In this document: in pieces, positions 2,247 to 44,878 of the stretch
How the letters are laid out: each line of letters starts with the position of its first letter
Position numbering within the stretch: position 1 is the first letter of the stretch
DNA from: Novakomyces olei
Lineage: Eukaryota; Ascomycota; Novakomycetes; Novakomycetales; Novakomycetaceae
Assembly: GCA_016906335.1 (NCBI GenBank)
Contig: JADEYG010000007.1
Location: 186,001 to 250,000, forward strand
Reading direction: 5' to 3'
DNA: 64,000 nt
Position numbers and translations under genes: made by a program
Notes under the pieces: generated by a model
What the model was told of the DNA's origin: nothing
The model's input: the letters and a program-made list of their open reading frames with translations, nothing else
Database searches by the model: none

Positions 2247-5200
2247 TCACCAGCCGAGCACCTTTTCATCGAACCGATGCAAGGTCTCCTCCATACTATT
2301 CATATCCTTTTGTGCCTTTTTCCGCATATAAAATATCGGGCAATCACGTGAAGTGCAGAGCACATCCTGGTGCAAGCTGCCCTGGCAACGCTGGCACTGT
2401 GTCCACAGTCTTGCAAACCTTACTTCTAAGGCGTTCGACTCCACTACGTGCCGCTGGTATATTTCCCCTACCCGTGACTTGCAGTTTTCACAGACTGCGG
2501 CTTTGCTGCCCTTGGGCAAAGGTGTTCGACACCCGAGACACAAGGCAGATTTTACAGCAAACTTCATAAGCCCTCCAATAGACGGAGCAGCGACGGAAAT
2601 AACTCGAGTATGATCACCAGAAAGAAGCGAGTTTGCCTTCTCCCCAAGAATCGGTTCAAATATACGTAAAAGCGGATTGGCCAGCTGGTTGTCAAGGTAG
2701 TATTTTGTATCAATCGGAATATTGTTCTCCAAAACAAATATCGGGTCTTCTGCCCGAGAGTGCAATTTCTCACCTGTTGCGCCTTTTATAATTACATAGG
2801 CCACTCGATCGCCCAACGCCGGAGCCGATCCTGCATCGCGCTTGCGCATCCGCTCAGCCAGTTCCACGTGAGCCTGCTTGGCCGTATAATCAGACTTTGA
2901 TAGGGCCTTTGTGATAACCAGCTGCGACATGTCCACCCGGTTTTGCAGCAAGTCCGATATCGTATCCTTTGTATACTCCATCGCCGCATTTACATCGCGA
3001 TCAACAAGCATCTTGCGCAGTGCCGTTTCAATAACGTGTGATACAAGTTGGCAATTGTCCCGTCTTACTGTTTCAATGCCTTTTGCATCCATTTTGTCAA
3101 ATTTATTTGGGTTTGTCCAGTACAGTCCAGCGTACCTTTTCTTACTGATCAGCAAGTAGGGGAAGTAAACCTTTTCAAACTCGAGTTTGATCGGTTTGAC
3201 AAACTTGCTTGATACATAGTTGGCTGCCTCTTGTCCCAGCTCCATCACCCGCGGCATATCCTTGACACCAAACTTTACCATCACGGAATCAGTATCACCG
3301 TAAACCACAGTAGCATCAGCCTCATAACCATTTGCGAGTGTGTAATGAGCTTCCACTTCTGCCTTTGTCTTCTCAATCATTTGCCGCCCGTAAGCAGTGA
3401 CACTGGAGGAGATCGGCAGACAAGGCAGCTTGCCGTTCGTTGCACCTGTGAATCCATATACTGAGTTTGCAGATATTTTAAGAGCGAGCTGACGGCCGTC
3501 AAGGACAGCTCGCTTGAAGGGATCTGTCTCTTTTTTAAGATCTGCTTTTGCTCTCTTGCGTGCACCCAACAGATCTTCAAAAATTGTGGGCAATAAGCCA
3601 CGCCGGACGTTTGTTGTCACAAAGCAGTCTATAAATAAGTATGATTAAAACATTTAACGATAAAAAATTCATAAAATTTAAATAATCCAAATTTACACAA
3701 CTCACCTCCGTTGGGTGTAACGGTATACTCTTCGTCCTTTTTCAGTTTCTGCGCGGCAATAACTTCGGGCGACAGCAGTGTCGTGTAGCAAAGATTGTGT
3801 GCCATCATGATGCTCGGGTACAAACTCGTGAAATCAAGTGTGGCTATCGGTGTGTCGTAATAGCCCTTTATGGGCTCAATTACAGTGGCACCCTCGTACT
3901 GCTCGTCCCCTCCCTCACTCTTTATATTGGGGACAACCAAGTCCTCAGCCAGGGCCTTACGGTACAGCTGGGAGATAACTTTTATTTGCTGGCCGCGTGA
4001 CAGCAAATAGTTGAAAGGCACACCAGTAACACGGGCCATCTCCGTGTAATTCACAAGGCACATTAGTTTGTCCATTAGACGCTGGGGTAGAAAGGCGTCT
4101 TTTAAACAATAAACAGCGAGACGCCGCCGGGATTCTGGTGTGCCGTTTTGCAAATCTGTAATAATAGAATGATGCACATCCTCCTTTTGTTCACCCAAAA
4201 ATTGAGCGCACACAGAATTGAGAGTGTATGATCTGAGCTTGTAGTCCCGCTGCACGACCTGCAGCATATCAAACTGAAGCCGGCCTTCCATGTTTGTGGT
4301 TTTTGATTCACGTGTGCCGTATGCTTTAGAGGAAAAAGTTGTCTCTTTAACCTCTGTTTTTTGTCGAGTTATACGGCCTAGAAAGGGGAAGTTGGATGCC
4401 TTTAAATGCGCAGCTCGGTCGAGCAAGTAGGGCAAATCAAAGTTGGCCGAGTTGTATCCAATCACAACGTCCGGATCGACTTTGCGAACGAAATCTGCCC
4501 AGTGCTCCAGCATTGCACGCTGGTCCGTATGCTCAAAGATTTGAGTGCCCACAATTTGTGCACAGGTATCGATAGTGAACACGTTCCGTACAAAAGGCTT
4601 TGACTGGCCATGTGTGGTCACAATATTGGCGATCTGGATCACCGGATCAACTTGAGGCTCTGGAAAAATGCCGCGGCGGCCAGCGCATTCGATATCAAAA
4701 GAAAGAATACGCAGTGGTGCCATTTTAAGCCACTGGCCTTCAGCGGCATGGGATACGAGGCGGGTCCAGTGCACGGAAACTTCAAGCTGGCAGTTTGAAA
4801 TCTGAGCGTGTTTGGGTACAAAAGAGTACCGTCCAGCGGGTAATTCGACCCAGTTCATGCCGAGTACGCCTGTATCGATCATGAACCTTAGTGTGTAGGC
4901 GATATTGCTTTCAAAAGTCATTTGTCCACCGTTGAAAAAAGATTCAAACCCAAACTCTCCACGCTCAAAGAACCCACGCACGCGCACCATCTGCCGTGGA
5001 TCAATGCACGTGATCTTGAGAAACGGAGACGGCTGGTTGCCACGGAACCCGTACAAGTTCTCCTTGAATTTTATGTCCACCTGCTGGACCGCGTTACCCG
5101 AAAACTGGTTGAGCGCACGATACAGTCTTTCTACCGCATCCGTCCGGAATCCCGGCGGCGCTGCGATGTAAAAATAAGGGTAGAATCCCGTCACTGTGCA

Positions 5201-5599
5201 AAGCACCGAGTTTCCGTTCCCAGTGACGCCAAACAGCCGTACAACAGGCCCACTGGCCTCGACCGCCTCGTCCGCTTCAATCTGCTGGAACACTACCAAT
5301 GCGTTAGATCGCTATAGCCGCTTTTTTATAACGCCAAACTTACCCAAAGGCTCCCTGTCTGCTGCGAGCGGTGGCACATCCGGCCGCTCCCACGCCTGGT
5401 CCACCTCCGCCGCTGCACCATCAGACTCCCGCTGACTCTGCAGCTCTCGAGACAGCGAATCCAACTCTGCCTCAAACGAGCTCTGTGTCGCCGACAGTTT
5501 AGTGCGTTTCATACCACCGTCCGCTTGAGGCGTAGTGTTTTCAATGTCGCGCAGAGGCAAAGACTCTTTTCGCTTTTCGCCCGCTGTATCAGGCGCCAT
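2247..5599 (-). CDS. POL3: DNA polymerase delta catalytic subunit
   Basis: Replicative B-family polymerase with 3'-5' exonuclease. Exons by splice signals: 5344-5599, 3706-5292, 2247-3628, giving 1074 residues, close to the usual 1,100. Visible motifs are Exo I ([12 protein letters not shown]), Exo II ([14 protein letters not shown]), Region II ([14 protein letters not shown]), Region III ([16 protein letters not shown]) and Region I (VYGDTDSV). The C-terminus has the CysA pair (CLGC...CENC) and the CysB cluster (CQRC...C...C), the latter known to hold a 4Fe-4S centre and contact the B-subunit. Intron 1 is 51 nt with a CTAAC branch point; intron 2 falls inside TPNGD before the palm domain. 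The N-terminus is short, basic then Ser/Glu-rich, and carries a PCNA/NLS-like basic KRK. Confidence 0.97.
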
Positions 5600-26396: not shown

Positions 26397-29300
26397 ATGG
26401 ACAAGGCAGTCGCCTTTGTCATCCAAAATATCGCTTATGATGGCGGCGTTGGTAAGTTGAATATATATTTGAATATCGAACTCAAAAGTCAGGATGCACG
26501 ATAGCACGAGTGAACGTGTTTACAGATGTGTACTTTGCACAACAGAATTCACAAGTGGACGATTCACTACGCGAGTATGTTCTCAAGCAAGTGCTAAAGC
26601 ATCCGTGCACTTTGGTTTACCGTCCGCTGCGGCAGAACGCTAAACAGCTGGACGATTATGAAACAATTTCAAATGATCAGGATTTATTAGGAGACACATC
26701 GGTGCTCATTGGGCTTACGTTTTCAGAGCGCAAAGCCATCTTGCTTGGGCGCGATGCAAACGATAGTATTATGACGGACATGAAGTGGCAGGCTTTGGAA
26801 GCGATTGCACGCTATCGCGGCGGTGGTGATGGTGGCATCGGCCAGAAAACAGTAAGAGACTTGGTGGGAGATCAACCACAAAGTTTCCCTCAGAAAATGG
26901 ATGAGCTTGCCGAAGCAGGCTTCATTGTTAAGCACCGGTCTGGTCTGGGAAAGTCCGATCGATTCACATTACAACTTGCTTGTTTTGCAGCCAACGGTGG
27001 TGCTACTACCACGTCTTCGCTAAGGCAATTAGAGACTGCCGATGGAGGTGTTACAGAGGAGGAGGCACAAAACCGTATTTTGGCTGCACTTCGTGAGGCT
27101 CCATATAATACTTTACCTTGGCTGCGACTACGAGTGCTTACAAGCCTCCAGCCTTCAGCACAATTAGCTTCCGGGTTACGGAGAGCGCATAATGCCCGAC
27201 TGACTCTAGTCTGCCAAATTTTGGAACAGCAAGGAGCGATTAAACGGTTCTGGTTTACACGGCCTGATAAAAGTGGAGGCGACAGATCTTCAAGAGTTCT
27301 ACTTTTACAGCTTACGGAGCGAGGAGGCGCTGCTGCAGAGAGCCTAGCGGAACAAGCACAAATTGCGGCAGCAGACACGGAAATTAGCGATATTAAAGAA
27401 GAGGAAGATGAAGAGGAACCTGTACTAGAGTCTCGAAATACACAAGACGCCGATGAAGTTGTGGAGCTTGATGATATAGGATTTCAGCGTGACTGGCCGA
27501 TTGATGCTCAAATTTATCGTTTAGTTGGAGAAAGTGGCCAAACCGGAATTTCTACTTCCGCTATAAATACAAAGCTTACGGGCCGTCGACGGGAGGGTAT
27601 AGTTAAATATGCATACCGGGCCCTGACTGATTTTTGTTGCTGTAAACTGGCGCCGGATATTCCTGCAAGCATGCACGAGTGCTGCCATGTCAAGTTTGTC
27701 AAGGAGCAATTTGGCAAAATTATAGAGCGAAAATTTCTCCTGGCTCCAGCCTTCAATCTACGAATGAAGATGGCTAGTGCGGGAAACGATGCTTTGCCAG
27801 AGATAAGCATGAAGGATTCATTCGGTGCTTGTGCTTTCCGTGAAGTAAATCCACGTTCGCTGGCTGAATCATTGTCTGGAGAGGCCAATAAAGTGCCAGT
27901 GGCTGGAAAAATGCGTAAACAGGGCACTGGAGAGCTGGATTCCCCACCAATATCAAAACGGACACAGCGAGGACGGCCTCGAAAGGATGCTGCTGCAGCA
28001 AGAAATGATTTGGAGACAGAGGATAGTGGTCCCGGTGAAGAAGGGTCGGGTAAAGCAAAACTTTTGCCAGTAGAATCACCGATCCAACGTGAATCTGTAC
28101 CTCTTAGCAACAGCCTTGCAAGCCCTGCAAGCCTTGCAGGCCCTGCCAGCCCTGCCCTACTAGTTGAAAGCCAGCAAAAAAGCAGGGGCCGGCCTCGCAA
28201 GTTTCCGCAAAATTACAATTATCGTATGAAACGGCCATACACGGAGGAAGAATTGGAAGCACGGAGGGCCACTGAGGAGCAAGCAGAAAAACGCCGGGCG
28301 GAGAAATCAGAGCTGCATCGACAGGCCTCGCTCAAGGCTCAGCAGACCCTGGCTGAGCGGCGACAGAGAACTCTAAAGGGCAATATGGATCTGGAGGAAT
28401 CAGAGCAAGTAGTCTCAGCGCCCTCGTGTTCATCAGAATCTATGTCTTCGCCAGGAGGCCGGCCTCGTCGGGCAGTGCGGATGCCACAGTTCCGTCAAGA
28501 AAATTTTATCGAGGCCATAGCCGATTTAAGCGATGACGAGGAGAACGAGGCGCGTGACCAATCACAATCACGCGAAAATTTGGTATCAGATTCAAGGCTG
28601 ATTGGCCAAGTAAACACAAACAAGAATGGAAAGGGGTACACTGAGAACAGTGATAAAGGCAACAGAGAGAATAGTTTTATATTGCCCACGAATATTCAGC
28701 AACAGGATCCGGCTGAAGATGAATACACTGATGCAAAAGACAATGGGAGTAGTGCAACGGCGACCAACACTGGCCATACTCCAATCAGCAATTATCGTGA
28801 TAATTGTAAACATAGTAACGGCGCTGTCAGGCCCTCTCTGCGAGACAGACGTTCAGGCAATGATGCATCATCGTGGACAAACAATTTGGCCCTCGTTGAC
28901 CGTCGACAGGCAGTTCTTTTGGCGTTGCAAGACTTGGACGGAGTCGCGGAAATGTCTCCGGCTTTTTACGATCGCGTGGCTGATCAATTAGCCTCAAGAA
29001 TTGCCCTGAGAGATCAATTAGCCGCGACTTTTCGTATTGATGCTAGAACAGTGCGCAATACAGTCACCCATCTGGAACAAACAGGTGACGTCAGACGCAT
29101 TACTCTTCAAGGACCCGTGGTGCTAGATGCAACGTCCGCGAGACAACACAATCATCGTCGACATATGGTTGCCCTGGCCAGTGTCGAGGACGAGAACCAT
29201 CCGGCCCTTGAAGCTATGCGTGCTGTTTTACGAGGCACTCGACCAGAAAGCACTGGTGCCAAACCAGACCTGACGGCAGAAGAGAGAGATCTTGCGTCCA

Positions 29301-31298
29301 AGGCTGTTGCTTCTGCTCGGCCAAGTAGCAGTGCGAGCCTTAGAAACAAAGATGCAAGCTATTCCTTAGACAGCGAGGCCACTTATTCCCGACGTGGTTC
29401 GACGACAAATAAAACTGCTCCGGGTTCAGGTTACACGGCGAGTGATAGTGGATCTGAGTATGAGGAACCTACCGCTAAAGTTCGCAAATCTAAACCACAT
29501 AAATCCCTATCAAGTGAAGCTAAAGTGCCTGCGCTACGAAGGCAAGCACGTGTCCGTCGGGAAATAAGCGACCGAAGACGGCGTGAGCAATTGACGACAA
29601 TTAAGCACGAAGAAAATGGCATCGCAACCGACGCAGAGCCTTCGCAATTGCCTCGATCTGCCGGATTGGCTTCGTTGACTAAACGGACGGCTATTTCAGC
29701 TGAAGCAGAGGCCTTTATTGTGCGTGGTGTCTCCATATTACACGTTTTATATGGACGCGGACCTTCTCATCGTGTGCCCTGGTCGCAGATTGTTCCCCAT
29801 TTCCCTCAGTACGAGCCCCACGAGCTTCGTATGCGCTACAAGGTTCTCTCTGCCCGGCCAAGATATCGGGCGATTGCCCAGTTTCTGGCTTCGTATTTTC
29901 CTCGAATGTATAGCACTCTAGTAGCACAGGGCCGATTGGACCAGGCTCCGGAGGACTCTGCAAGTTTGCCCTTGGAAGAGTACGTTGCTGCCTCTAGTCT
30001 GGCTATTGCTCTTCCATCAGACGAGGATAATGACGCACAGCAGCAGCATGCTATTGGCCTTCCACAGACACTCGCAGAACTGGAATCTCATTACGTCGTA
30101 GAGCCGGATCATAGTGCAATTGACAATGTGCCCGCGACTTTCAAGTCGGCCGTGGGAAAGTATGGTATTATTCTAGACGAGAACTGCTCCGTGCGTAAGA
30201 AGAAGCAAGTTCTTCAAGATTCAGCCGATGTTGTCGATTTAGAATGGAGTTTTGTTGGTGGACAAGGAAATCAAGGAAATCCGGATGTGGCCTGTCAAGA
30301 TCGTTTACACACTGAAACCACAAGAAAACCCGGAAAAATTGCTCTTGATCGTGAGGCGCAAGCAATTGTCAAATCGCTGATGCTGGCTCCGGCCAGTATG
30401 AACCAGCCAGAGCGGGCTCTTGCCCGGCTGCAGTCCCTGCAGGAGCAGGTGGACATGGTGGCTTTGATTAAAAGAATGCGAAGCTCGGACATTGTTAAGC
30501 GTGTTGGTGAGGATCGAAAAGTTCCTGGCAGTCAGTACGAGCCTACTGCCCGGTTTGCAGACCGACTCGAACGGTTAATTGTTCCGGTGGCCACAGTAGC
30601 GGCAGAGGCATCTGCGTTTTCTGTACGCGTGGAAAAGCAGGATATCAATGTCCAAGAGCTGGCAAGAGGAGGTGTTTTGTCTGTGCTTTTACGTACTGTA
30701 TTTACGGATGCAATTAAACTTGATATTGCTCGGCCTGTGTGGAGTGAAGGGCCAATGCTTGAGGCTTACAAGGCTAAATCGCTGGACCGAGAACTCATTG
30801 ATTTCCCTGTTGTTGCTAGAAAAATGCCGGCAACGTCTGGGCAACCAGGGCTGCCTTCAAGCTACGTTGAGAGACTACGAGTACCACCGCCCGCTGCGGA
30901 TGATGAGCGAGTCCAGCCTCAGTTTTGGAGGGCCTTGTGCGTGGAGGGTACGCCTTTAATACCAGGATTATGGCAGCGGCTTGTTTTTGCGCTAGTGTCG
31001 ATTGTGACTGCTCATCCACGAATACCGATCGTACGTGTGCATTTCTATTTTATTCTGTTGATTTTGTCTTTAGTTCGTATACACTTTTTCGTTGACCGTT
31101 TATTGAACTGAAGTCATTTATTTATTATTAACCGAATTTCTTTTCAGAATGGCTGCTAAATATCAGGAACGACTACAGCGAATGGTGGAACCGGTATTGG
31201 AACCTTACGAACTGCAAGCAATTCTCGGCTATCTTTCTAGTGTGAAGGAGCCGTTGCTGCAAATCAAAGACGGCCAAGTGGAGCCGTTATTATTTTAA
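26397..31298 (+). CDS. TFC3: TFIIIC largest (B-block-binding) subunit
   Basis: Recognises the B box of tRNA genes to recruit TFIIIB and RNA polymerase III. Exons 26397-26451, 26493-31030 and 31179-31298, about 1570 residues. Exon 1 gives MDKAVAFVIQNIAYDGGVG, joining in phase to CTIARVNVFTDVYF. Residues about 105-165 form the B-block winged helix (QALEAIARYRGGG...QKMDELAEAGFIVKH). Further winged-helix-like parts follow, then a disordered middle with three AT-hook-like GRPRK/GRPRR motifs near residues 510, 584 and 673, and a C-terminal helical part. The last exon is certain as coding, but its acceptor is less so: a GACTACAG acceptor keeps frame while the stronger CTTTTCAG acceptor 32 nt earlier does not. 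Confidence 0.85.
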
Positions 31299-41104: not shown

Positions 41105-41662
41105 ATGAGGATCTACAATTGCTACTTTTGCTCGGGACCCGTCTATCCCGGGCACGGTGTCATGTTTGTTCGCAATGATGCCAAAGAGTTTCGGTTTTGC
41201 CGCTCAAGATGTCATAAAAACTTCAAAATGAAGCGTAATCCTCGAAAGGTTGCATGGACGAAAGCGTTTCGAAAAGCAGCTGGCAAAGAAATGGTGTTTG
41301 ACTCGACACTTACGTTTGCTGCTCGGCGCAATATTCCCACTCGCTACAATCGTGATCTGGTGGCTAAGACGCTCAAGGCGATGGATCGTGTTTCAGAGAT
41401 CAGAGCTCGCCGCGAAAGAGTATTTTATCGCCAACGCATGGCGGGCAATCGCGAACGGAAAATCGCTGCTGCCAGAAAACTTGTGGAGGAAAATGAACCT
41501 CAATTTGCAATTACGTCCAAAGACCTACCTGCAAATATTGAACAGATTCCAAGTGACGCTTTGCTGGAGGAAGAAGACGAAATGGTCGTTGAACCTGAGC
41601 CTATCCCTATCGCAGTGAAGACCAAGAAGCGGGCAAAGGCAGAAAAGATGCAAATTGGCTAG
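41105..41662 (+). CDS. RLP24: Ribosome biogenesis protein RLP24
   Basis: Placeholder for eL24 on pre-60S particles, released by the AAA-ATPase Drg1 after export from the nucleolus. Single exon, 185 residues. It starts [20 protein letters not shown], with the zinc-binding CxxC and a second pair in [12 protein letters not shown]. The conserved [19 protein letters not shown] follows; the C-terminal part is Lys/Arg-rich after an acidic patch (EEEDEM), longer than eL24, which marks it as RLP24. Confidence 0.96.
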
Positions 41663-42284: not shown

Positions 42285-43529
42285 TTATCGCTTCTTTTGT
42301 ATTTCAGGCTTTTTTGCTGCCCGCTTTTCCGATTTTCGCTTCATTCCTTTTGGCGTCGGGTCCGGCTCGGTATTTTTCAATGATTGAGTTACCTCCCGTT
42401 CTGCTTCATCAAACATGCTTTGTATTATACGTAGTGGTATCGTATCCCCACGCCCAAATTCCCTGCTCCAAAGAGAATCCTCTGGCTTTTTTGTCATGCT
42501 ATTCAGGAGCACCCGGACTTCGTTCACTTGCACGTTTTTCTGCAACTGCCGCTTATTAGCGGTAATTCTTTTCGTAATATTTTGTCGCTTCTTTTCCAAG
42601 TCTTGAACTTCGCCAGAGCATTCTTGACGCCTGTGTTCCGAAACCATCAAATCTAATGGGTACAAAGCGCGCCGTACAGGCACAGAGTTTTCGTCTAAAA
42701 GAAGCAGCTCCTGCATACTATCACGTCGCTTAGAGCCGGGCAGTAGGCCGGCGAGTGGCTCACTTGGGAGCCCTGTTCGTTCCATTGCTTTAACATACGC
42801 CGATCGGAGAAGAGCAAACAATTTCTCAGTTGTGAGCATACCAACACTTTCATCCAGACGAATGACCATATCAAGCGGTGCTTTCGGCCACAGACCTTCG
42901 CCCCTGTTTAAGCTTTGCTCAAACATCCTTGCTATTACCTCTCTTACGCGCCTCCTCATAATATTTCGATAAATAGCTTTATTGCCGGTGCGTTTTTTAT
43001 TTGCAATAATCAAACAGCGGACTCGGGGTTCCTGAAAATATTCATACTTAACCGACATATGGTCCGGTAACACAAATAATCCTGCGGGTAGCATTGCAGC
43101 ACCGCGTAGACGAGCAGCCTCACATCGATAACGAACAAGAATAGAAAAAAATTCAGGGATAACGACGGGTCTCACTCCTCGCATTAACCCAAAATCTTCA
43201 TAAATCGCAAAATCGCACGCCCGAAAGCTCAACCCCTCTTTTGAAAGAGCATTAGCTCCTTGCTTTGAGCGATGAGGGTACTGATTGTGAGGGATAAAGG
43301 GCACTTTGAGATTTGAATCTTTTGAGAGTTGGGTCGTAGCCGTCTTTCTTTTCAATGCTTCACGAGCCCCTACTGCCGCGAGCTCATTCGCTGCGAGTAA
43401 AGCAGATCGTTTCCCCTTACTTGAAGCATTTTCGGCAGCTTCAGAGGCCGTACCTTGTGTATAAAGTCTAGTGCATGTAAAAAAGCGTTTGAAGAAGCCA
43501 GCACGTTTTGCGGAATGCATTAACCGCAT
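42285..43529 (-). CDS. Mitochondrial protein with a bacterial RNase P protein (RnpA)-like core
   Basis: Single exon, 414 residues. The N-terminus is rich in Arg, Phe and Ser with no acidic residue for about 29 positions (MRLMHSAKRAGFFKRFFTC), a good mitochondrial presequence. Residues about 160-250 carry the RnpA signature: CLIIANKKRTGNKAIYRNIM, then RRRVREVIARMFEQ, corresponding to the bacterial SKKxGxAVxRNxxKRxxRE motif, followed by APLDMVIRLDE (the strand after the RNR helix) and a closing helix LFALLRSAYVKAM. Bacterial RnpA is only about 120 residues; here it is flanked by an N-terminal region of unknown fold and a basic coiled-coil tail. Known fungal mitochondrial RNase P uses Rpm2, so this assignment is from motif only. 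It is divergent from CDC123. Confidence 0.7.
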   Translation of the reverse strand: MRLMHSAKRAGFFKRFFTCTRLYTQGTASEAAENASSKGKRSALLAANELAAVGAREALKRKTATTQLSKDSNLKVPFIPHNQYPHRSKQGANALSKEGLSFRACDFAIYEDFGLMRGVRPVVIPEFFSILVRYRCEAARLRGAAMLPAGLFVLPDHMSVKYEYFQEPRVRCLIIANKKRTGNKAIYRNIMRRRVREVIARMFEQSLNRGEGLWPKAPLDMVIRLDESVGMLTTEKLFALLRSAYVKAMERTGLPSEPLAGLLPGSKRRDSMQELLLLDENSVPVRRALYPLDLMVSEHRRQECSGEVQDLEKKRQNITKRITANKRQLQKNVQVNEVRVLLNSMTKKPEDSLWSREFGRGDTIPLRIIQSMFDEAEREVTQSLKNTEPDPTPKGMKRKSEKRAAKKPEIQKKR

Positions 43530-43690: not shown

Positions 43691-43798
43691 TAGTAATAAT
43701 CGTATAAATCAAGAGGGGTAGTATAAATAAAAAAACGGCAAATGACATTATGTAATTATGATTATAGGAGGACGTATTTAATCTTTTGTCAATTCTTC

Positions 43799-44878
43799 AT
43801 GAGCTGTAATGGCGACGAGCCGAGTGCAATAGACACAGAGACGCCGGAGGACCAAGTGCCGCAGGCGCCGAGGTGTTCATGTCAGGCAATTCTAAACTGC
43901 CAGTTTTCGTCGTGGTATGCTTTGTTCCAAGCGTTGACTCCCCGAGCACGCATTATTCGGCCGTTAAGTAAAGCGTTTGTGGACTATTTGTTGGCGGACG
44001 GGATCGTTTTGCCTGACGATGACGAAACTGACGCGGAACATGATACGACAGGAAATGGGAGTGACAGCGACGACGATAATAGTGCAATTAAAGCGCTATT
44101 ACAGGAGATGCGCCCAGAGCACGACAGAATAAAGCAAATTATTACAGAATTAAATGGCTCGGTTGTGCCAAAGACGAATTGGTCGACACCTCGTGATGCT
44201 GCATGGATGATTGCGGGAAATACAATGAAATGCACGTCTCCGTCTGATGTTTATTTGCTATTAAAATCTTCTGATTTTGTCATGCATGACTTGACTCATA
44301 CATTTGATGATTGCTACGACGGGCCTCTCCCTGTCCAGTTCGAGCTGGTGCTTAAGGAATGGTTTGATATGGTGCCCGCTATGGAGTTTCGTTGCTTTGT
44401 GCGCAACAGGCGCTTGGTAGCGGCATGCCAAAGAGACTATGCAAATCACTATGACTTTTTGGAGGATATGAACGGAGAGATTATTGACTCTCTCTCTGTG
44501 TTGGCCACGCCTCTCTGCCTCGAGTTTACCGATGGAGACTTTGTGTTTGACGCGTATTTGCAAAGATCCTCCGCAAATCGCGCTTGGCTTATTGATATTA
44601 ATCCTTATGCAGCACGAACGGATACTCTGCTCTTTACCTGGGCAGAAATTGATCACATTGCGGAGACACTTGGCGATAGGCTTCCAGAGCTACGCCTTGT
44701 CCCCTCCGGAACCGGTGCTAGTGGTGCCGGTTCTGGTGCTGCTGCCATGTCCACTAACCGTGTCCCTTTAGATGTGGTGTATGCCAGCCAGGGCCAGAAC
44801 GTGGCCGAGTTTGCGCAAACATGGCAAGAGATGCTGGCACAGGGCGTTCAGGATACGTTGGAAAATGGTCAAGTGTAA
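43799..44878 (+). CDS. CDC123: CDC123, eIF2 assembly factor
   Basis: ATP-grasp-like chaperone that joins eIF2 gamma to alpha, needed for cell-cycle entry. Single exon; 359 residues from the ATG encoding MSCNGDE, while an upstream in-frame ATG (43742) sits in the AT-rich leader and is less likely. Family motifs: CQFSSWYALF near the start, IIRPLSKAFVDYLLADGIVLP, KTNWSTPRDAAWM, DVYLLLKSSDFVMHDL, EFRCFVRNRRLVAACQRD and the metal/nucleotide site AWLIDINPYAARTD. The acidic loop DDDETDAEHD follows the IVLP segment, as in other fungi. Confidence 0.96.
   Translation: MSCNGDEPSAIDTETPEDQVPQAPRCSCQAILNCQFSSWYALFQALTPRARIIRPLSKAFVDYLLADGIVLPDDDETDAEHDTTGNGSDSDDDNSAIKALLQEMRPEHDRIKQIITELNGSVVPKTNWSTPRDAAWMIAGNTMKCTSPSDVYLLLKSSDFVMHDLTHTFDDCYDGPLPVQFELVLKEWFDMVPAMEFRCFVRNRRLVAACQRDYANHYDFLEDMNGEIIDSLSVLATPLCLEFTDGDFVFDAYLQRSSANRAWLIDINPYAARTDTLLFTWAEIDHIAETLGDRLPELRLVPSGTGASGAGSGAAAMSTNRVPLDVVYASQGQNVAEFAQTWQEMLAQGVQDTLENGQV

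Follow-up and report, generated by a model that had tools for sequence, protein, structure and literature searches.

A nuclear-encoded candidate RNase P protein of bacterial type in the ascomycete Novakomyces olei

Introduction

Bacterial RnpA, the protein subunit of ribonuclease P (RNase P), makes two contacts in the enzyme, with the 5′ leader of precursor tRNA (pre-tRNA) and with the P4 region of the RNA that does the cutting (P RNA). Here we describe an RnpA-like gene in a 64,000-nucleotide stretch of the genome of the ascomycete Novakomyces olei (contig JADEYG010000007.1, positions 186,001 to 250,000), which we refer to as the window. An initial annotation of this window had proposed a nuclear gene for a bacterial-type RNase P protein with a mitochondrial presequence. 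Set beside its bacterial counterparts, known as RnpA, C5 or P protein (PF00825; B. subtilis 1a6f, T. maritima 1nz0, E. coli 7uo0), the fungal protein is long, at 414 residues against 119 in E. coli (PMC8509007). It differs also in its nuclear gene, its presequence-like start, its C-terminal extension of about 150 residues and in that a P RNA was not found in our searches of the genome.

Nuclear genes of this kind have been described in other eukaryotes. Ostreococcus tauri and other prasinophytes have a nuclear-encoded bacterial-type RNase P protein (Lai et al. 2011, cited in PMC4919922 and PMC7050145), which has been reported to function with P RNA and to complement an E. coli mutant (PMC4919922). 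In Andalucia godoyi, an RnpA predicted to be targeted to mitochondria was identified from the nuclear genome draft, and its domain is highly diverged (PMC7050145). The N. olei gene is like that of the prasinophytes in placing a bacterial-type RNase P protein in the nucleus of a eukaryote, and like that of A. godoyi in being nuclear, presumed mitochondrial and diverged. Unlike the fungus, prasinophytes are green algae with plastids and known organelle P RNAs, and A. godoyi is a jakobid with a bacterial-type P RNA in its mitochondrial DNA, whereas such an RNA was not recognised in the fungal genome. The rarity implied by the initial annotation therefore holds only in part: nuclear RnpA has already been published for prasinophytes and A. 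godoyi (PMC4919922, PMC7050145), while the papers listed by our literature searches, at most 20 for each, include none that describes a fungal RnpA. Such genes may already be flagged where fungal proteins are annotated automatically with Pfam. Since RnpA is known in prasinophytes and a jakobid, the fungal case is an addition to a known kind: a further member of the eukaryotic set, in an unexpected lineage.

To our knowledge, the only known protein partner of a fungal mitochondrial RNase P is Rpm2 of budding yeast, and the role proposed here, that of a nuclear-encoded protein of the fungal mitochondrial enzyme, is the same. PRORP, whose fold and catalysis differ from those of the RnpA enzyme, would do the same mitochondrial job as protein only; it is reported absent from fungi (PMC10941002). 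For fungi, RPM1 is described as the RNA subunit in mitochondria and Rpm2 as its protein, an unrelated one (PMC4919922), and several fungal mitochondrial genomes are annotated with RNase P RNA. Several fungal lineages are said to keep the RNA, with a protein that is often nuclear-encoded, and more partners are perhaps undiscovered (PMC9181182).

Membership of the RnpA family

Positions 42780-43050 on the minus strand, where the initial annotation had placed its RnpA-like segment, correspond to residues 160-250 of an uninterrupted 414-codon open reading frame (ORF; Table 1). Its ATG start abuts an in-frame TAA immediately upstream, and the three stretches that had been quoted, NKKRTGNKAIYRNIMRRRVRE, REVIARMF and LDMVIRL, are all present in it. 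A search with the Pfam profile of the family, PF00825, which had been suggested as a check, matches this ORF at 27.2 bits (E 4.2e-6), above the curated cut-off of 22.3, and no other Pfam family reaches its cut-off. In a six-frame search of the 14.34 Mb genome with PF00825, the ORF is the sole match (E 8.5e-6).

The RNR motif, R-N-x-x-[KR]-R-x-x-R, is complete (R188 N189 I M R192 R193 R V R196). When the protein is aligned with 36 RnpAs, to which it is 13-25% identical, columns R68, N69, R73 and R76 are invariant in 37/37 rows, and the motif, the strand LDMVIRL and the closing helix follow one another in the correct order and in register. At residue 185 begins the core of a PROSITE-like RnpA signature, A-x2-R-[NH]-[KRQLYI]-[LIVM]-[KRA]-R-x-[LIVMTA]-[KR]. 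This core occurs in 1 in 100,000 whole-protein shuffles and in 0/377 other ORFs of the window, and is carried by 41/69 bacterial RnpAs (10/35 and 31/34 of the two sets described below). Thus, by profile and motif, we identify the protein as a member of the bacterial RnpA family.

Table 1. Features of the RnpA-like gene and its immediate neighbours, in positions of the window
Feature	Position	Strand	Remarks
RnpA-containing ORF	42285..43529	-	intact, 414 residues, single exon
Candidate mitochondrial presequence	43452..43529	-	residues 1-26, by composition only
Domain modelled with RnpA fold	42762..43169	-	residues 121-256
Pfam PF00825 Ribonuclease_P match	42789..43034	-	residues 166-247, profile 37-107/109
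RNR motif AIYRNIMRRRVR	42942..42977	-	residues 185-196; bacterial form A-x-x-R-N-x-x-[KR]-R-x-x-R
Basic C-terminal extension	42288..42746	-	residues 262-414, ~150 residues
Rlp24 (L24e family)	41105..41662	+	neighbour; fungal nuclear context
D123/Cdc123 ORF	43727..44878	+	neighbour; divergent from RnpA gene

Profiles that we built ourselves, scored against 2000 shuffles of the protein and the 377 other ORFs of the window as controls, are weaker support than the Pfam match. The protein came first, narrowly, with 67 distinct gammaproteobacterial sequences (9.0 vs 8.7 bits), first with a mixed set of 41 (13.4 vs 10.5 bits), first with 35 sequences of one bacterial class (16.0 bits, best control 7.9) and first again when this last set was combined with 34 other RnpAs (16.0 vs 10.1 bits). 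The 35 sequences are made up of 30 loci drawn from the 39 genomes of the class that gave a match, and of five judged alike from a one-phylum sample; the 34 comprise 11/67 gammaproteobacterial loci, 22/29 loci of the one-phylum sample and the B. subtilis protein. From features of its RnpAs we take the class to be Alphaproteobacteria, and the higher score with this presumed alphaproteobacterial profile (16.0, against 9.5 with the 34) hints at an alphaproteobacterial tie. Counter to such a tie, the signature core is carried less often by that set than by the other, in the proportions given above.

With the bacterial rows in the alignment, the domain is modelled as a helix, three strands, the long RNR helix, a strand and a helix, a predicted fold compatible with RnpA. 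In RnpA the N-terminal helix and first strand carry the conserved aromatics of the central cleft. The model includes a helix (residues 130-141, at a predicted local distance difference test score, pLDDT, of about 50) and a strand (residues 151-154) N-terminal to the PF00825 match. Together with the Pfam score, this model supports the assignment to the bacterial-type family that the initial annotation had made.

Several observations weigh against this assignment. The AlphaFold2 model made from the single sequence is poor (pLDDT 42.8) and retrieves no RnpA, and the better model leans toward the RnpA fold because it was built with bacterial RnpA rows. The profile of 34 sequences places the protein second, at 9.5 bits, behind a shuffle at 9.9, and HHalign of the 41-sequence profile with the single protein finds the correct register at 9.3% probability (E 0.0035). 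The GNA-V motif carries one inserted residue (GNKAI), because of which the full signature, which adds [LIVMFYS] at the third residue upstream of the A, does not match, G standing at its first position; this full pattern fails also in 25/35 and 5/34 bacterial RnpAs (30/69), and is therefore not family-defining. Protein searches found no homologues with the full length (E up to 0.01 over the top 7999 candidates), nor, to E 10, with a 145-residue piece (39 candidates) or with residues 100-262 (398 candidates); as the number of fungi in the database is uncertain, this is no evidence of uniqueness. Neither an NCBIfam scan of the ORF (E up to 10) nor a phmmer search of the PDB returned an RnpA, and the likeness is therefore a remote one.

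There is a reading of these observations in which the protein is not an RnpA at all, its arginine-rich helix resembling the RNR motif by chance or convergence. In its favour are the weak PF00825 score, which spans about 80 residues and leaves profile positions 1-36 unmatched, the single-sequence model, the low HHalign probability, the self-made profile that fails against shuffles, and a three-sequence MAFFT alignment in which the motif is one step off register. We nevertheless think it very unlikely that this is the case, given that the curated cut-off is passed, by the sole match in the genome, that the signature core is so rare among shuffles, and that motif, strand and closing helix stand in the right order and in register with 36 RnpAs.

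Termini and proposed role

The N-terminus fits the mitochondrial presequence claimed for it, by composition: residues 1-26 contain 6 K/R and no D/E, and hydrophobic moments are 0.27-0.78 in 18-residue segments starting at residues 1-13. From this we infer that the protein is probably mitochondrial. The C-terminal extension is basic (34 K/R and 23 D/E in residues 260-414), and no Pfam family matches it above cut-off.

The RNR helix is the best-kept part of the protein, and the role that we therefore consider most likely, with fair confidence, is that of a nuclear-encoded RnpA that is imported to form the protein part of a mitochondrial RNase P based on RNA; its location, its partner RNA and its activity are ones that we infer. 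The protein would be imported into mitochondria and would there complete the enzyme. By analogy with bacterial RnpA, the pre-tRNA 5′ leader would lie in the central cleft, and the RNR helix would bind to P4 of a mitochondrial P RNA and assist in placing metal ions, while the cutting would be done by the P RNA and not by the protein. The protein subunit of RNase P is described as having no catalytic activity (PMC4835064), and RnpA as contacting the pre-tRNA leader (PMC8447495).

The main competitor of this mitochondrial RNase P role is that an RnpA descendant has been repurposed as a mitochondrial RNA-binding protein, acting for example in mRNA processing, decay or ribosome assembly and no longer with P RNA, its new function being carried by the extension. 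Such a history would be in keeping with the basic extension that lacks a family, with the failure to recognise a P RNA in the genome or in the mitochondrial circle, and with the strong divergence of the protein, which scores 27-29 bits against PF00825, compared with 45-115 bits for the bacteria in 31/31 genomes of the one-phylum sample. Yet the residues that are best preserved are those of the RNR motif, which in bacteria are contacts to P RNA, and other candidates for a mitochondrial RNase P were not found in the genome, in searches that lacked positive controls. We judge repurposing to be unlikely. The searches in question gave 0 matches to Rpm2 (PF08579) in the genome or ORF scan and 0 to PRORP (PF16953) in the genome; control genomes were without a match too, so absence of either protein is not shown.

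A nuclear RNase P RNA is present (RF00009, 74.7 bits, C2:1345555-1345892), and the nucleus therefore has its own RNase P. That the protein assists this enzyme or RNase MRP is a suggestion to which the presence of the RNA, and a basic C-terminal tail that could carry a nuclear signal, lend something, but which we find scarcely credible given the presequence-like N-terminus and the absence of RnpA from a table of yeast and human nuclear RNase P proteins (PMC8509007).

The RNA partner and the mitochondrial genome

The mitochondrial genome is contig C6 (96,084 bp, with a GC content of 12.2% in the 95,500 bases read), which contains cox1, cox3, both rRNAs and about two dozen tRNAs, with nad, cob, cox2 and atp9 genes named by eye from the frames. 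Its two passes are 99.9% identical across a 23 kb overlap, with gaps but no mismatches. The nearest PDB entries to its Cox3 are 6giq and 6ymx (312 bits), which we take to be from S. cerevisiae; others score 282 bits or less.

The initial annotation had expected a mitochondrial rnpB RNA to accompany the protein. None was recognised, and these results tell against an RNA-based enzyme. Rfam scans of C6 1-95500 returned tRNAs, rRNAs, a single group II intron and some matches due to chance, and recognised no P RNA, and three of ten 10-kb pieces of C6 rescanned singly with laxer filters gave none. In a genome search with the bacterial-type P RNA model RF00010, the top score was 9.5 bits, on contig C4 with E 5.45, which is noise, 16 of 181 first-look candidates having been scored. 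No convincing pair emerged from a home-made, uncalibrated scan of the mitochondrial circle for P4 strands: the two best plus-strand matches are two copies of one site in the region of the large rRNA, and on the minus strand the best match starts antisense to the last cox1 exon. By eye, the spacer between tRNA-Met and tRNA-Pro, the place of the yeast P RNA gene, offers no candidate. Patches richer in GC that lie outside the listed frames were identified, also by eye, as atp9, a short ORF, a piece resembling a tRNA, the beginning of the small-rRNA region and dispersed hairpins.

General models often miss the P RNAs of fungal mitochondria, and for this reason we do not read the gap as evidence of absence; the MFannot paper states that several taxon-specific models are needed for this RNA and that its patchy occurrence may be due to cases that were overlooked (PMC10352661). 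A reduced fungal P RNA is still compatible with our scans, and the partner is probably a strongly reduced P RNA, encoded in mitochondrial DNA, that went unrecognised here.

A wider history can be proposed, which we regard as possible but somewhat doubtful: that RnpA, from the alphaproteobacterial ancestor of mitochondria, was the original partner of the fungal mitochondrial P RNA, survives in fungi such as this one and gave way to the unrelated Rpm2 in budding yeasts alone, the group in which the enzyme was studied; in N. olei it would work with a P RNA too reduced for general models, or with none. If true, an ancestral RnpA would settle which protein partners the mitochondrial P RNA in other fungi. 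A fungal nuclear-encoded RnpA is a concrete and testable candidate for that partner; with it, the eukaryotic range of RnpA, so far jakobids and prasinophyte algae, would reach the opisthokonts, which would mean that this bacterial protein persisted in more lineages than have been recorded.

Some further features of the mitochondrial genome were observed. The circle is about 72.35 kb, which contig C6 passes about 1.3 times. The cox1 gene, at about C6 49527-59045, consists of five matching pieces split by introns with long open frames, one of them of group II type, and a TGA within the best exon match suggests that TGA is read as tryptophan. The sequence TTTGCACC or its complement occurs 24 times per lap, in some cases as the two arms of one hairpin (sites include C6 26239, 30258, 42907, 43750, 63083 and 71270). 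The sites that were read by eye fall within short patches of higher GC, several of them close to a CCTG-like tail, and have the appearance of dispersed mitochondrial GC clusters.

Genomic context

The nuclear location given in the initial annotation is supported by the flanking genes Rlp24 and Cdc123, because both are eukaryotic. The nearest PDB entries to Rlp24 are 8esq (231 bits), 8i9r (216) and 3jct (211), which we take to be from S. pombe, Chaetomium and S. cerevisiae, respectively. Together with those of Cox3, these relatives indicate an ascomycete without singling out a subphylum. Farther away in the window are genes for DNA polymerase delta, a cyclin, a RasGEF, an arginine methyltransferase and Coq4.

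These surroundings bear on whether the gene was recently acquired from a bacterium by horizontal transfer, or is bacterial contamination of the assembly. Its single exon and its bacterial family would suit either origin, as would a GC content of 0.461, with 0.412 at third codon positions (GC3), both just under those of six other ORFs of the window (GC 0.477-0.534, GC3 0.417-0.535). However, the composition is close to theirs and the gene sits between Rlp24 and Cdc123; its product is 414 residues long, with a presequence-like start and a long extension, and is too diverged for protein searches to find a bacterial RnpA. We consider a recent bacterial origin highly improbable.

Elsewhere in the window, the DNA polymerase delta match at 2247-5311 (-) is part-length only, in 3629-5311, and the adjoining ORF 2247-3644 may continue it past an intron. 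A 1551-residue ORF at 26456-31111 (+) matches a single Pfam family at E 1e-5, namely DUF6581, whose function is unknown.
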